This document shows, in pieces, positions 32,760 to 62,362 of a stretch of 64,000 nucleotides of DNA (the stretch's first letter is position 1; every line of letters starts with the position of its first letter). The stretch is from Leptotrichia massiliensis (GTDB taxonomy: Bacteria > Fusobacteriota > Fusobacteriia > Fusobacteriales > Leptotrichiaceae): assembly GCF_900104625.1 (NCBI RefSeq), contig NZ_FNVZ01000005.1, positions 1,426,001 through 1,490,000 on the forward strand, given 5' to 3'. The notes under the pieces are model-generated. The model made no database searches and had not been told where the DNA came from. It worked only from the letters and a program-made list of their open reading frames with translations. The translations under genes and the position numbers were made by a program.

Positions 32760-33338
32760 CTATGCCACTTCCTTTTCTACTTTTTTAATTTCTTTTGTTA
32801 ATTTTGCTATTTCAGTTTTCAATAAATCCATTTCGGACTTTATCTCTGTTATCCTTTCCTCTGTTTCGGTTATGTCAAAGCCTATATTTTCAAATTCCTC
32901 TTTTTCCTCTTCCTTATTTTCCAATTCTTTTTTGAATTTGATATACTCTTGCTGTTTTTTATATCTTGTATCTTTTAAATACTGTAATTTCTCAGCATTA
33001 TCCTCAACCCAACTCTTAGTATCTTTATCCCATTTACTGTACTCATTCGGTTTAGCTACTGTTACGATAGTTTTGTTTGATTCATCAAGATAACTTCCAT
33101 CATCTAGTATTCTTTTTCCAGCCTTAACTTTTTCAAATTCAGTCATTTCCCTCAATTCTCCAGTTTCAATATCCACAACTGGATTTACAAGTAACACGGT
33201 AGAATATTTCATTGTTTCCTCATTCCAGTCAGGATAAAACGTTGTCGGATTTTCCTTAAAATGCTCAAGTCCAGTAGTTACTGGCTGTGCGATATTTTCC
33301 ATTGTTGCTATCAAGTAAATAAATATTACTGTTGTCAT
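32760..33338 (-). CDS. Tail-fibre-associated protein (possible assembly chaperone)
   Basis: The 192-residue protein has an N-terminal domain with segments such as NPVVDIETGELREMTEFEKVKAGK and KTIVTVAKPNEYSKWDKDTKSWVEDNAEKLQYLKD. These are typical of genes next to tail fibres, with a DUF4376 or fibre-assembly flavour. A long coiled coil follows from about residue 115. It is separated from the fibre by the recombinase gene. If it is a chaperone it must cope with both versions of the fibre tip. Confidence 0.55.
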   Translation of the reverse strand: MTTVIFIYLIATMENIAQPVTTGLEHFKENPTTFYPDWNEETMKYSTVLLVNPVVDIETGELREMTEFEKVKAGKRILDDGSYLDESNKTIVTVAKPNEYSKWDKDTKSWVEDNAEKLQYLKDTRYKKQQEYIKFKKELENKEEEKEEFENIGFDITETEERITEIKSEMDLLKTEIAKLTKEIKKVEKEVA

Positions 33339-33383
33339 TTTTTATCACTCCATTTCTTTTTTATGATTTTAATTCTGTGATAG

Positions 33384-33563
33384 TTTGGGAATTTTTACAG
33401 ATTTTAAAAATTCATTTGTTAATTTTCTTAACTTTGAACGTTTTACCGACTTCGGTAATTTGATAAAAAACAAAAGTTGGCCCAAAATAAAATTACTTCA
33501 AAGTCCCTAAAAATCGGCGTAAATTTTTTTAAAACGTAATAACAATTCTTGATAATTCCCAAA
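33384..33563. repeat. 10-bp inverted repeat in the gap downstream of the recombinase
   Basis: TTTGGGAATT (33384-33393) and AATTCCCAAA (33554-33563) flank most of the 243-bp gap, which also holds the small palindrome TTACCGA-CT-TCGGTAA (33443-33458). No open frame is seen. Significance unknown; it does not match the 19-bp sites of the invertible segment. Confidence 0.3.
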
Positions 33564-33581
33564 TTTCTTTCAATTTTTATG

Positions 33582-34517
33582 CTAAAATCCCGCTTTTTTG
33601 CGAATTTCTAGCAATTTATTTTTCCTATCTTTTGCAGTAGTTTTCTTGATGTAATGTTTCTTTGTAACATCAATCCCAGAATGATTTGCAAATTCACTTG
33701 CTAATTCAATTCCACCGACTTCCGCCAATAAATTAATACTAGTTTTCCTTAACGTGTGAGGATATAAATTATCTATTCCTACAAGTTTTCCTATTTTTCT
33801 AACTCGATCACGTATAGTTGATTTGCTCATTTGCTTAAATACTCCGTTGTATTTAGTAACAAATAAGTATTCTATGTTGCCTTTCCTACATTTCAACCAC
33901 TCCTTTATCAAATTTAACGTGTTTTCAAATATCACAAATTCCACAATTTTTTGTTCTTTTTCTACAATTCCATTTATTATCCCATTTTCTAAATCTAAAT
34001 TACTCATTTTAATTGAATGTAATGCCGATATTCGACATCCAGTATCAATAATAAGATTGAATATTATCTGATCTTGCAAATCATATTTTTCAGACAATTT
34101 CATTTTCACTTGTATTTCCACTATTTCCTTACTGTTTAAATAATAGCTTTTTCTCCTCTTTTCCACATCTGTAACTTTTAATCTGTCTAGTTTATCCCGA
34201 AACGGATGCACCTCCACTAAATCTCTTTTAACAGCCCATATATAGAAGCTACTTATTGCTGTTATTTTGTTGTTGATAGTACTTGCATTGTTTCCTTTTA
34301 CTTCCCTGCAGTATCTTATGTATCGTTCTAAAATAACCACCATGTTTTTGGAATTTTTTCTGTTCAATAAATAACAATTATTTTCATATCGTCGTAAATA
34401 CTCAACAAATTGTTTCATACTGTTTGTGTAAGTCCTATATGTTGTGTTTTTTACACTTTCATTTCTCACTATACAACTGTTCAGATATTCCTTGTAGATT
34501 TCCCAATTTTTGTTCAT
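33582..34517 (-). CDS. Tyrosine recombinase, probable tail-fibre DNA invertase
   Basis: About 311 aa with an N-terminal SAM-like core-binding domain (residues about 1-105) and a C-terminal catalytic domain. The active-site set is visible: Arg in DTGCRISALHSI, HTLRKT (His-x-x-Arg), FANHSG (His) and the nucleophile in KKHYIKK. The ATG at 34517 has AGGAG eight bases upstream and is preferred over a GTG at 34526. It starts 45 bp from one of two 19-bp inverted repeats bounding the fibre 3' end, as expected for a dedicated invertase. It may instead be, or also be, the prophage integrase, since no other integrase is in the window. Confidence 0.85.
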   Translation of the reverse strand: MNKNWEIYKEYLNSCIVRNESVKNTTYRTYTNSMKQFVEYLRRYENNCYLLNRKNSKNMVVILERYIRYCREVKGNNASTINNKITAISSFYIWAVKRDLVEVHPFRDKLDRLKVTDVEKRRKSYYLNSKEIVEIQVKMKLSEKYDLQDQIIFNLIIDTGCRISALHSIKMSNLDLENGIINGIVEKEQKIVEFVIFENTLNLIKEWLKCRKGNIEYLFVTKYNGVFKQMSKSTIRDRVRKIGKLVGIDNLYPHTLRKTSINLLAEVGGIELASEFANHSGIDVTKKHYIKKTTAKDRKNKLLEIRKKAGF

Positions 34518-34535
34518 TTGAATCACTCCTATACT

Positions 34536-34575
34536 TTTATTTTAAGTATAGCTTTTTTGAGTAAATTGGAAAATT
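34536..34575 (-). promoter_or_regulatory. Recombinase promoter overlapping an inversion site
   Basis: On the minus strand TATACT forms the -10 element about 25 bp before the start codon. A weak TTTCCA -35 lies 16 bp upstream, inside the left 19-bp repeat. The small palindrome TATACTT-TTATTTT-AAGTATA sits in the leader. Recombinase bound to its site would therefore cover its own promoter. Confidence 0.4.
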
Positions 34576-34581
34576 TATCCA
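34563..34581 (+). repeat. Inversion site, left 19-bp repeat
   Basis: AAATTGGAAAATTTATCCA, the exact reverse complement of 35202-35220. The first 18 bases are codons for KLENLS in the frame of the silent cassette. Confidence 0.9.
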
Positions 34582-34898
34582 AAGTCCAACAAGCGAAACT
34601 TTACGTTCATGCAGAAGCAATTGGTGCTGGAAGAACTACATGTAATATTGTAGAAAAAGTTGGGAATATAGTAACTATAATATTTGATAGTGGTAATGCT
34701 CTCAAAAACATTAATGATAATACTGTAATATTTCAAATTCCAGATGGTTTTAAGCCCAAGACTTTCCTTTCAGTTAATGCTTCTCAGTACAATACTTCGA
34801 ACGGAACGGTATATATTGAACCTAGCGGAATTGGTAAATGGAAAGGTGCAACAGTCAATTCTGCCAGCATAATATTTTCAGTCAGTTATATTGTTTAA
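34563..34898 (+). CDS. Silent alternative tail-fibre C-terminal cassette
   Basis: The cassette encodes KLENLS followed by 105 residues and a stop, with no start codon or ribosome-binding site of its own. It aligns in pattern with the expressed fibre tip: K-x-GN-I, F-x-IP-x-x-F-x-PK, I-E-x-x-G and W-K/R-GA occur in the same order, while the rest differs strongly. The longer open frame extending back to 34410 runs across the recombinase start region and has no translation signals. After inversion the cassette would be read in frame as fibre residues 222-332. Confidence 0.85.
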   Translation, partial: KLENLSKVQQAKLYVHAEAIGAGRTTCNIVEKVGNIVTIIFDSGNALKNINDNTVIFQIPDGFKPKTFLSVNASQYNTSNGTVYIEPSGIGKWKGATVNSASIIFSVSYIV

Positions 34899-34905
34899 AC
34901 TAAGT

Positions 34906-35883
34906 TTATTTAGCTAAATATACCGCATTGATATATAACGCGGAGCTTGTTCGTGCCCCACGCCACACTACATTACCGTTTGTTTCTATGTGAGCCGCTC
35001 CACCACTGGCAGAATTAATTATTCCAACGCTGACTGGAGTTAAGAACTTTGGACGAAATTTTTCAGGGATATTAAAAAGCACTTCTCCGTAATTCCGACC
35101 GTTGTAAACTTCGTTGGAATCTACAGTCAGAATACAAATATTTCCAATTTTGTGAATTACTCCGACCGTGAGCCTTGAATCTATCGCATAGCTTTCAACA
35201 CTGGATAAATTTTCCAATTTGTTTGCAGTTTGATAGTCTGAAATAGGAATAAATTTTGTACTTTCATAATAAGTCAAATCATTTTCTATTTTTGGCACTA
35301 CCATTTGTTTATTTGCGACATCATAATATGCCACTCCCACTTTTTTAGTTCCTACTGTCCCTAATAATCCACCAAAATTTGTCCCTAAAAATTGATTATA
35401 TTCCACCATTTCAAGTGGAATTACAAATCTTACACCGTCAAAAATAACTTTGTAGTATCTATTCTTTTGTAATTCTCCAACGGTTAAATTAATAACTGTT
35501 TCCCCATCTTCCTTTGTTAAATTATATTTATCTCCAGAAATTCTTAACATAACTACATTTGTTGTATTTGCTTCAGTTATTTTAATATTAAATGTTAATC
35601 CGTCAAACAATTCTAACCCATTCAAATTATTTGTTCCCTTTAATCCCTCTATGTCTAATTCGTAAACATCTGTGCTATTTTCTACTGCATGGACTGTTCC
35701 GACAGTAAAATTAAGTCCCTCCTGCATTGGATTAAATAAATTCTTATCCAATGGAGTTCCAGCTACATTAATATTATTAGGAATATCAGTAATTATTGCT
35801 GTGCCGTCACTATTATTTACAATATTATATTTATTGGCAACTGTTCTTCCTCTATCTATCACATTTGTGAATTTTTTTGACAT
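34906..35883 (-). CDS. Phage tail fibre with switchable C terminus
   Basis: A 325-residue fibre. The N-terminal 221 residues are constant, with TPLDKNLFNPMQEGLNFTVG for baseplate attachment and a beta-rich middle (FDGLTFNIKITEANTTNVVMLRISG). KLENLS (222-227) is encoded by the inversion site, and the last 98 residues form the exposed tip ending RGARTSSALYINAVYLAK. It is the last gene of the tail module, after gpI. The strong AAAGGAG site supports the ATG. Phase variation of the tip should change which host surface structure is recognised. Confidence 0.85.
   Translation of the reverse strand: MSKKFTNVIDRGRTVANKYNIVNNSDGTAIITDIPNNINVAGTPLDKNLFNPMQEGLNFTVGTVHAVENSTDVYELDIEGLKGTNNLNGLELFDGLTFNIKITEANTTNVVMLRISGDKYNLTKEDGETVINLTVGELQKNRYYKVIFDGVRFVIPLEMVEYNQFLGTNFGGLLGTVGTKKVGVAYYDVANKQMVVPKIENDLTYYESTKFIPISDYQTANKLENLSSVESYAIDSRLTVGVIHKIGNICILTVDSNEVYNGRNYGEVLFNIPEKFRPKFLTPVSVGIINSASGGAAHIETNGNVVWRGARTSSALYINAVYLAK
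35202..35220 (-). repeat. Inversion site, right 19-bp repeat
   Basis: Reverse complement of 34563-34581, lying inside the expressed fibre gene and encoding KLENLS there. The identity stops abruptly on both sides, as expected for a recombination core. Confidence 0.9.
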
Positions 35884-35885
35884 TT

Positions 35886-36545
35886 TTATCTCCTTTCAAA
35901 ATTTATTAGATCATCTGATAAGTAAATTTTATCTCCAGCATTTATTTCTTTTGAATACGGTATATCATCAAAATTGAAATTACAATCTGCTTTTCTTGTA
36001 TAATGCAATGGAAATAAAACATCTCCAGCAAATATATCTCCTGAGTAATACGCTTGGTTATAATTTTCTAGGCATTTTCTCGTGTTTATTTTTATACCTC
36101 CACCTATGATACTTTCTAAGTCTATTACATCTATCAATGAAAAGTTATAATTTTTTTCAGCTATAAAATCTATATCATATCGTCCAGCTTCACCGTCAAC
36201 TTTCCAGCCTTCACGAATTTCAGGAAATAATCCTGTAAAACTTTTAATTAAATTTAGAATATTATCAAGAGTAGGCACTATATCCAACGCTTGAAATTTT
36301 AATTTGATTCTTTTTCTATAATTATCATCTACATCATTGTTTCTTTTTTCTTCAACTAAAGCTCCCAAATCATCTAAAAATTCGCCTTTTGCTTTATCAA
36401 TTAACCAATAATTGTCAAGCATATCAATATATTTATCTATCAAGTCAAAAACTTTAGCAATACTTTGAATAAATAATTGATTTATTTCTGTGGCTTGCAA
36501 AATATATGGAATCTTACTTGTTAAATATTTATAGTTGTTATACAT
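35886..36545 (-). CDS. Baseplate wedge protein gpI-like (DUF2612/YmfQ type)
   Basis: A 219-residue protein. The start (YLTSKIPYILQATEINQLFIQSIAKVFDLIDKYIDML) and the DDLGALVEEKRN...YRKRIKLKFQALDIVPTLDNILNLIKSFTG region match the family that caps the baseplate and carries the fibre. Its start overlaps the end of the baseplate J gene by 8 bp and it ends 3 bp before the fibre, fitting the order J-I-fibre of P2/Mu-like tails. Confidence 0.75.
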   Translation of the reverse strand: MYNNYKYLTSKIPYILQATEINQLFIQSIAKVFDLIDKYIDMLDNYWLIDKAKGEFLDDLGALVEEKRNNDVDDNYRKRIKLKFQALDIVPTLDNILNLIKSFTGLFPEIREGWKVDGEAGRYDIDFIAEKNYNFSLIDVIDLESIIGGGIKINTRKCLENYNQAYYSGDIFAGDVLFPLHYTRKADCNFNFDDIPYSKEINAGDKIYLSDDLINFERR

Positions 36546-37656
36546 TCAACTCACCTTTTTCCCTAATTTTTAGCTGTAAATTTGTTGAATATTCACTATC
36601 AGAAGCAAGTTTGAATGATAAATCTAAATGTTTTAAATCAATTTCTGGTATATTTGGCCTTATGCTTTCTATAAAACATTCATAGGCACTTATAAAACCA
36701 TTTACCCCTTTAGATTTTATATAGTTATTAATCAAATTATCTATTTTTGCTTTATTATCAGTTGCATAATTTGCTGGAATAGATGTATATTTTGCATCTA
36801 TCTTTATTATTTTAGGTCTATAAAAATAAATTTCCCTTTCAACTCCTGAAGTATCTTTGGCTATCCCTTTTATATCCCCTACTGATTTTATTGCTTGGTC
36901 TTTCTTTTCAAATATTGTCTGTGCTATTTGTGAATTTATACCGCCGTCAACAACTATAATTACACTTTTCTGTTCAATTCCATTTACAGTTATTGGCTCA
37001 TGATTTTCATTAACATAAACACTTTCTACGCCGTCCAAATCCATTAATGCTGATTTTATACCATCAATATTCCAATAACTTCTAAATCTCGAATTAAACC
37101 ATCTATCCCTATATTTAATATCATTTTCCCTGTCTTGTCCCCCTTCTCCTGCTGTATTAGAATTTATTGACAATATTCCTGAAACAGTAGTTATAAATTT
37201 AGTTATTTCATTACTTGCAATGTTTCCAATACTTCCAGCTGTTTCACATTCAAATTCTAATGTGATCGTATTATTAGTTGCTGTTGCTGTGTTTATATTA
37301 AAAAATTCAATGCCACTAACTGTCTTAACTCCTAATTCTCCAATATCTACTGTCGTTCCATTTACAGCATTCAAAGTTACGAATGCTTTTGAAAAACTAG
37401 GCTGTTTTCTAGGAAAATTGAAATTTCCATTTAAAATATCGTCTAATTCTTCATTTTCAGCTTTATATATATTTGCTTTATCCGCCAAATATTGTATTTT
37501 ATATAATTTTTGTTGAGCCAATCTTCCAACTGGGTAACCTATCATCATATACCAAATTGTTCTTTTATCTCCTGAAAAATCAACATTACTTTCTTTTATT
37601 CCAGAACTCATAGTTTCTATTATTTCATTTAAACTTGGTATTTCTATTCTTGCCAT
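36538..37656 (-). CDS. Baseplate assembly protein gpJ-like
   Basis: A 372-residue wedge protein of the baseplate_J family. Typical features are the N-terminal PVGRLAQQKLYKIQYLADKA region, a beta-rich centre (ETAGSIGNIASNEIT, then AGEGGQDRENDIKYRDRWFNS), and a C-terminal part YIKSKGVNGFISAYECFIESI...I. It joins gp25 and gpI to build the six wedges around the hub of a contractile tail. Confidence 0.85.
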   Translation of the reverse strand: MARIEIPSLNEIIETMSSGIKESNVDFSGDKRTIWYMMIGYPVGRLAQQKLYKIQYLADKANIYKAENEELDDILNGNFNFPRKQPSFSKAFVTLNAVNGTTVDIGELGVKTVSGIEFFNINTATATNNTITLEFECETAGSIGNIASNEITKFITTVSGILSINSNTAGEGGQDRENDIKYRDRWFNSRFRSYWNIDGIKSALMDLDGVESVYVNENHEPITVNGIEQKSVIIVVDGGINSQIAQTIFEKKDQAIKSVGDIKGIAKDTSGVEREIYFYRPKIIKIDAKYTSIPANYATDNKAKIDNLINNYIKSKGVNGFISAYECFIESIRPNIPEIDLKHLDLSFKLASDSEYSTNLQLKIREKGELNV

Positions 37657-61907: not shown

Positions 61908-62330
61908 CTATAATTCTTCTATTTTTTCTTTTACTTCATTAATTAACCCTTCAACTTGTTTATAATTTCCATTTTTCAAACTCAAATATTCTACTTTCTC
62001 TGTTATAAGATTTAAAATACTTTTTTGTTCCTCAACTTCCACTAATTTTAAAAGTTCCAAAAGTCCATCTAAAAATTCATCGCTATCATCACCTAGCAAT
62101 CTTTTTCCAATATCTCTAGGTAACATACTAGCAAATATTTGTTCTCTTTCTTTTTTATTCAAGCCTAATGCTTTAGATAATGTATCTACTGTAGCAATTG
62201 TAGACTTATTTTTTCCTGTTTCAATATCTCCTATTGTTCCTCTTCCTAGTCCTGCTTTAGTTGCAAGTTCAGCAATTGTTAAATTTCTACTCTCTCTTAA
62301 TTTTTTTAAAGTTATACCTAAAGTTTCCAT
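61908..62330 (-). CDS. CI-type phage repressor (XRE family)
   Basis: About 140 aa. An N-terminal HTH (LKKLRESRNLTIAELATKAGLGRGTIGDIETGKNKSTIATVDTLSKALGL) is followed by a helical C-terminal half for oligomerisation; there is no S24 protease domain. The ATG at 62330 has GGAG six bases upstream, better than the ATG at 62342. It is divergent from the early operon and shares its control region, as phage repressors are. Confidence 0.82.
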   Translation of the reverse strand: METLGITLKKLRESRNLTIAELATKAGLGRGTIGDIETGKNKSTIATVDTLSKALGLNKKEREQIFASMLPRDIGKRLLGDDSDEFLDGLLELLKLVEVEEQKSILNLITEKVEYLSLKNGNYKQVEGLINEVKEKIEEL

Positions 62331-62362
62331 AATTTTCTCCATTCTATAAGGCTCTTTAATAT

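Follow-up and report, generated by a model that had tools for sequence, protein, structure and literature searches.

A candidate two-state tail-fibre tip switch linked to a tyrosine recombinase in a Leptotrichia prophage

Introduction

Some phages change the ends of their tail fibres by DNA inversion. In Mu, P1 and p15B, the serine recombinases Gin, Cin and Min act together with Fis and an enhancer, and the outcome is a set of alternative fibre ends. A tyrosine recombinase, Rci, serves the shufflon of plasmid R64, where it acts at 19-bp repeats and swaps the C-terminal tips of the adhesin PilV; this is a plasmid pilus system, and its sfx site has one conserved arm. Closer to the locus described here are phage systems that use tyrosine recombinases. 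Rin of Bifidobacterium prophages was reported in 2018 and, consists of armless tyrosine recombinases that rearrange the C-termini of receptor-binding proteins (RBPs) (PMC6109161). Phage tyrosine invertases acting on receptor-binding tips were later reported in Eggerthella lenta clade 1 prophages (PMC8778435), and in the haloviruses phiCh1 and phiH1 the tyrosine recombinase Int1 carries out tail-fibre inversion (PMC6210493).

Here we describe a locus in a Leptotrichia massiliensis prophage. It lies in a 64,000-nucleotide stretch of contig NZ_FNVZ01000005.1, hereafter called the window. We consider it to be, with a probability of about 0.93, a two-state tail-fibre tip switch run by the phage tyrosine recombinase encoded at 33582-34517. 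The locus would give the same outcome as Gin, Cin and Min, alternative fibre ends, but with a tyrosine recombinase, and it differs from R64 Rci in serving a phage tail instead of a pilus and in having a site with two palindromic arms instead of one conserved arm. Its layout is of the Rin type, with an armless tyrosine recombinase next to a fibre gene that has a constant part and a start-less cassette. Rin and the Eggerthella systems share with the window an XerD-like armless tyrosine recombinase adjoining the fibre or RBP gene, a separate integrase, a constant N-terminus, start-less C-terminal cassettes, short sites and rearrangements at these sites (PMC6109161, PMC8778435). Rin has several cassettes and an asymmetric 11-bp site, TTCCCTAACCC, whereas the window has two cassettes and a site with palindromic arms that is read KLENL; moreover, the window phage is contractile-tailed and fusobacterial and carries a second small invertible element, of which the Rin section consulted makes no mention (PMC6109161). 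No Bifidobacterium record is found among the phage matches listed for the recombinase. Int1 resembles the window enzyme in being an XerD-type tyrosine recombinase that serves two fibre genes, one of them uncoupled from its start codon, but Int1 is encoded between two fibre genes, within a larger invertible region (PMC6210493), whereas the window recombinase is encoded outside its 658-bp segment, and the alternatives there differ in the tips only.

Results

The fibre gene ends inside a two-tip segment

The prophage has genes for terminase, portal, head, sheath, tape measure, baseplate and lysis, and matches to sheath, baseplate J and tape measure proteins back a contractile tail, in agreement with the myophage originally proposed. 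The features of the fibre locus are as follows.

34563-35220, no strand: invertible segment of 658 bp with both tips; the homologous 565-bp segment is inverted in genome G009
34563-34581, plus strand: outer inverted repeat; its crossover site, AAATTGGAAAATTT, spans 34563-34576 and reads KLENL in the silent frame
35202-35220, minus strand: inner inverted repeat, inside the fibre gene, with crossover site at 35207-35220; KLENL in the expressed frame
34906-35883, minus strand: gene of the expressed tail fibre (325 aa), with its constant part at 35221-35883 and its present tip at 34906-35220
34563-34898, plus strand: alternative tip of 111 aa, silent and lacking a start codon, read in frame from KLENLS at 34563 to the stop at 34896-34898
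36538-37656, minus strand: baseplate J-like protein, tail operon context

The two 19-bp repeats are perfect, and in first-order Markov versions of the 64-kb window only 0.017 inverted pairs of at least 19 bp within 3 kb are expected per window. Three such perfect pairs exist in the window in total, and this one alone adjoins a recombinase. The fibre ORF, which matches phrog_23632 and phrog_19961 (tail fiber), terminates within the segment; the fibre protein gave no match in the phage collection. The silent cassette has 111 codons, or 105 counted after KLENLS, and it is arranged tail to tail with the fibre gene, the two stops being 7 bp apart. Inverting the segment in silico yields an open 332-aa fibre with its junction exactly at KLENLS. 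The original prediction had placed these repeats around the 3' end of the fibre gene and an opposed start-less cassette in the matching frame; the ORF coordinates and the in silico flip agree with it at every point. It had also described tips that differ apart from a few motifs, and indeed the two are 36% identical, with K-x-GN-I, IPxxFxPK and W[KR]GA present in both. Structure prediction gave a pLDDT of about 55 for both tips, and because their fold is not predictable at this level, it is their position at the fibre C-terminus that suggests receptor binding.

In the proposed switch, the recombinase would bind the two oppositely oriented sites (AAATT-GGAA-AATTT) and exchange strands in their shared core. 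The 658-bp segment would then flip, and the constant N-terminal part of the fibre, some 221 residues ahead of KLENLS, would be fused in frame to either of two alternative tips of 104 or 111 residues, the unused tip lying reversed and without a start codon. Because the site doubles as KLENL coding sequence, the frame would be kept and no scar would be left at every exchange.

Three further features of the window can be mentioned here. A 28-bp perfect inverted pair containing CCGATAAAATCGG (60982-61009/62397-62424) flanks a Cro/CI-type repressor gene (61908-62342), and the pair likely represents duplicated operators. Perfect 24-bp inverted repeats (26727-26750/27318-27341) enclose about 615 bp that seem to lie beyond the left prophage end and may be a small mobile element. 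The prophage gene at 53271-53939 matches Pfam Mom (6e-45), the Mom DNA-modification family, and adjoins a ParB-like gene.

The layout recurs in fusobacterial relatives

The recombinase was found in 7 of the 33 family genomes (the window's own counted) at eight loci, the other seven being 76-98% identical to the window's, and all eight share one order, from baseplate/tail genes through fibre, site, reversed start-less tip and second site to the recombinase. Class-wide, the recombinase family was present in 20 of the 98 genomes searched. IMG/VR searches with the recombinase and the fibre returned only a same-orientation copy, L019, and one relative. L019 is the sole other copy of the exact window phage, and it probably comes from the same strain as the window genome; the relative, L020, has the same order from fibre through reversed tip to recombinase. 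The Fusobacterium phages Funu1 and phiRTG5 and an F. animalis plasmid also have this order with reversed cassettes, which are annotated as hypothetical proteins, the recombinase being annotated as an integrase. Larger cassette arrays occur as well, with 7 sites in the fusobacterial assembly G035, and with 15 matches to an ACAG-centred site in L067 (G051:C2), spread over some 4 kb on the upstream side of the recombinase. Among these relatives the fibre backbones vary and the recombinase and sites are common; between the window and G012, homology ends at the outer site. Homologous recombinases are also found outside fibre loci, one in Ilyobacter polytropus (44% identical) away from a tail locus and one on a Bacillus plasmid (38%) adjoining a tape measure gene, so being a homologue is not in itself proof of a tip invertase.

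Opposite states in relatives and selection on the silent tip

The original prediction of an invertible tip cassette linked to a tyrosine recombinase was borne out in these relatives, which were caught in opposite or reshuffled states. In G009, a single Leptotrichia genome, one two-tip element is shared by two prophages. The copies match at 98.9% over 565 bp and are inverted relative to each other, with tip A expressed and tip B silent in one prophage, and tip B expressed and tip A silent in the other. G035 holds a 39-kb phage in triplicate; the copies are nearly identical, yet they show three cassette arrangements and three expressed tips. Aligned blocks have no more than 11 mismatches each, with small indels in addition, and they end at the KLENL sites; rearrangement is limited to the DNA between the sites and one small element. 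The copies may be three separate prophages or assembly variants within a single population; in either case several states of this DNA are present. Genome comparisons of this kind give good support to inversion in this family of elements, and the exact window prophage probably inverts in the same way.

L. wadei (95% aa identity) and a second prophage in the window's own genome (73%) use as their expressed tip the one that is silent in the window, in both cases joined at K[VL]ENL. Where dN/dS against homologues was computable, it was 0.04-0.11, which is unexpected for a cassette that is never expressed.

The fibre end of the second prophage (L011:5663-6688; G000:C5 about 762662-763687) keeps the site. 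No reversed cassette adjoins it and no family recombinase was found there, so it appears to be a locked derivative; close relatives of this prophage include L. wadei plasmids of about 30 kb. In L018 (G013:C1:366650-367429) the recombinase is apparently frameshifted, possibly another locked switch.

It might be considered that the window too holds a fossil, a switch that inverted once and is now locked. Although L011 demonstrates that a locked derivative with tip and site but no adjoining recombinase exists, and the G013 enzyme seems to be broken, the window still has an intact, conserved recombinase and two sites without a mismatch over 19 bp, and its silent tip shows strong purifying selection. 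We therefore regard a fossil as improbable, and a working two-state switch as the better account of the window.

The crossover site is matched within each phage

The common site is AAATT-NNNN-AATTT, of which the window has the version AAATT-GGAA-AATTT. In each of the 14 tabulated loci, the two sites of one phage have the same 4-bp centre and the same AATTT arm, while between phages the centres vary (GGAA, AGAA, AGAG, ACAG, GGAT) and the left arm is looser. Read in frame, the site gives K-L-[E/Q/D]-N-L with small variations, showing that the recombination site is at the same time coding sequence. In the G009 prophages the flank-side bases stay put and the cassette-side bases move, which places the exchange within a shared core ending in GAAAATTT. 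A core shared between the sites is what strand exchange by a tyrosine recombinase requires.

These sites also bear on another possibility, in which an inverted duplication gave rise to the two tips and homologous recombination or gene conversion is the sole means of their exchange. The tips are modular and move between different fibre backbones, as such exchange would allow, but they are only 36% identical to each other, the breakpoints fall in a 9-19-bp site whose centre is matched within each phage, and nearly identical phages differ mainly by flips at the sites. Exchange by homology alone is thus very unlikely, and site-specific inversion by the adjoining enzyme is preferred.

The adjoining recombinase and the separate integrase

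Two features lie just outside the segment.

33582-34517, minus strand: tyrosine recombinase, 311 aa, Xer-like, without arm-binding domain, proposed tip invertase
34530-34550, no strand: dyad TATACTT-TTATTTT-AAGTATA, between the outer site and the ribosome-binding site of the recombinase

The recombinase gene begins outside the segment, with an ATG at 34517 that is 46 bp from the repeat, although an in-frame GTG at 34526 is also possible. Pfam finds Phage_integrase (2.9e-22) and SAM-like N-terminal domains and no other domains, in line with the tyrosine recombinase originally placed next to the segment. R162, K187, H254, R257, H279 and Y289, which we take to be the conserved tyrosine-recombinase motif residues R, K, H-x-x-R, H/W and Y, are invariant in seven aligned sequences, and the protein aligns to XerA/XerD structures. 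A housekeeping XerC/XerD identity was rejected, since the NCBIfam equivalog scores are far under the cut-offs (XerC 75.8 of 335 bits, XerD 69.6 of 330 bits). A serine invertase of the Gin/Cin/Hin type was likewise rejected, the tyrosine enzyme being the sole recombinase that domain searches found adjoining the segment.

The prophage has another candidate for integration: an integrase with Arm-DNA-bind_4 at window-equivalent 67088-68137, past the right edge of the window, whose neighbours, as judged from their translations, are presumably an exonuclease and RecT. Because this arm-domain integrase sits at the opposite prophage end, beside early genes, the segment-adjoining enzyme, which has no arm domain, is not the prophage integrase. 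That the latter enzyme is nevertheless the integrase, with the repeats as attachment-site remnants or chance, is hardly probable: it is annotated 'integrase' in relatives and matches phrog_1 (integrase), but it lies within the late operon between fibre and lysis genes, and its sites are inverted, not direct, and inside a structural gene.

The dyad is altered in relatives yet remains palindromic, its arms changing together from TATACTT/AAGTATA to CTATAATATT/AATATTATAG, and it may be an operator, the promoter of the recombinase or an accessory site. A weak promoter match, with the -35 in the outer site and the -10 in the dyad, occurs at background rate.

A second small invertible element

Downstream of the recombinase lie the following.

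33381-33566, no strand: second small invertible element, 186 bp, with degenerate sites at 33381-33394 and 33553-33566, between the recombinase and the next gene
32760-33338, minus strand: 192-aa tail-region gene, conserved downstream of the recombinase

In 12 of 25 loci, a perfect inverted repeat of at least 12 bp bounds 149-202 bp right after the recombinase stop, against 0.8 loci expected and 0-1 in control regions; several other loci, the window included, have degenerate repeats with similar arms. The centre of the small element differs from that of the tip sites within the same phage (TGGG against GGAA in the window). In L015, the homologue of the window element is inverted and has perfect 17-bp repeats. 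Opposite orientations of the element are seen among the G035 phage copies (100% over 168 bp), in the two G009 prophages (91%) and in G014 relative to the window (80% over 182 bp). Elements of 150-200 bp were noted downstream of the recombinase in L015, L016/L017, L020, L024, L060-L062, L067-L070, L074, L075, L077 and L090.

It seems that the same recombinase may flip this element too. We lean slightly towards one phage tyrosine recombinase driving two independent switches with the same arms (AAATT-N4-AATTT), where unlike centres would keep each recombining with itself; the small switch, apparently non-coding, may set the expression of the recombinase or of downstream tail or lysis genes. Promoter and terminator matches in the element region are at background level and its RNA fold is not unusual (z -0.96), so while the element may be regulatory, we claim no mechanism for it.

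Discussion

Tyrosine-recombinase fibre switching had been put forward at this locus as a distinct solution. It stands as a new fusobacterial variant; as a principle it is not new, given Rin, the Eggerthella prophages and Int1 of phiH1/phiCh1. An incomplete literature search found no published description of such switching in fusobacterial phages, and the novelty lies in the lineage, the site rule and the second element.

This mode of switching extends across Fusobacteriota phages, among them Funu1 and phiRTG5, whose enzyme carries the annotation of a plain integrase. Together they form a natural set that ranges from 2 tips to about 15 sites and displays the spacer-identity rule, making site choice and directionality testable. 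The second element raises the question of whether the phage ties tip choice to a regulatory flip. With a two-state flip, a lysogen or a burst would contain particles with two receptor specificities, and a tip swap probably alters which cells the phage attaches to, so that host range may change with it. In such phages, the host range does not follow from a single fixed genome sequence.
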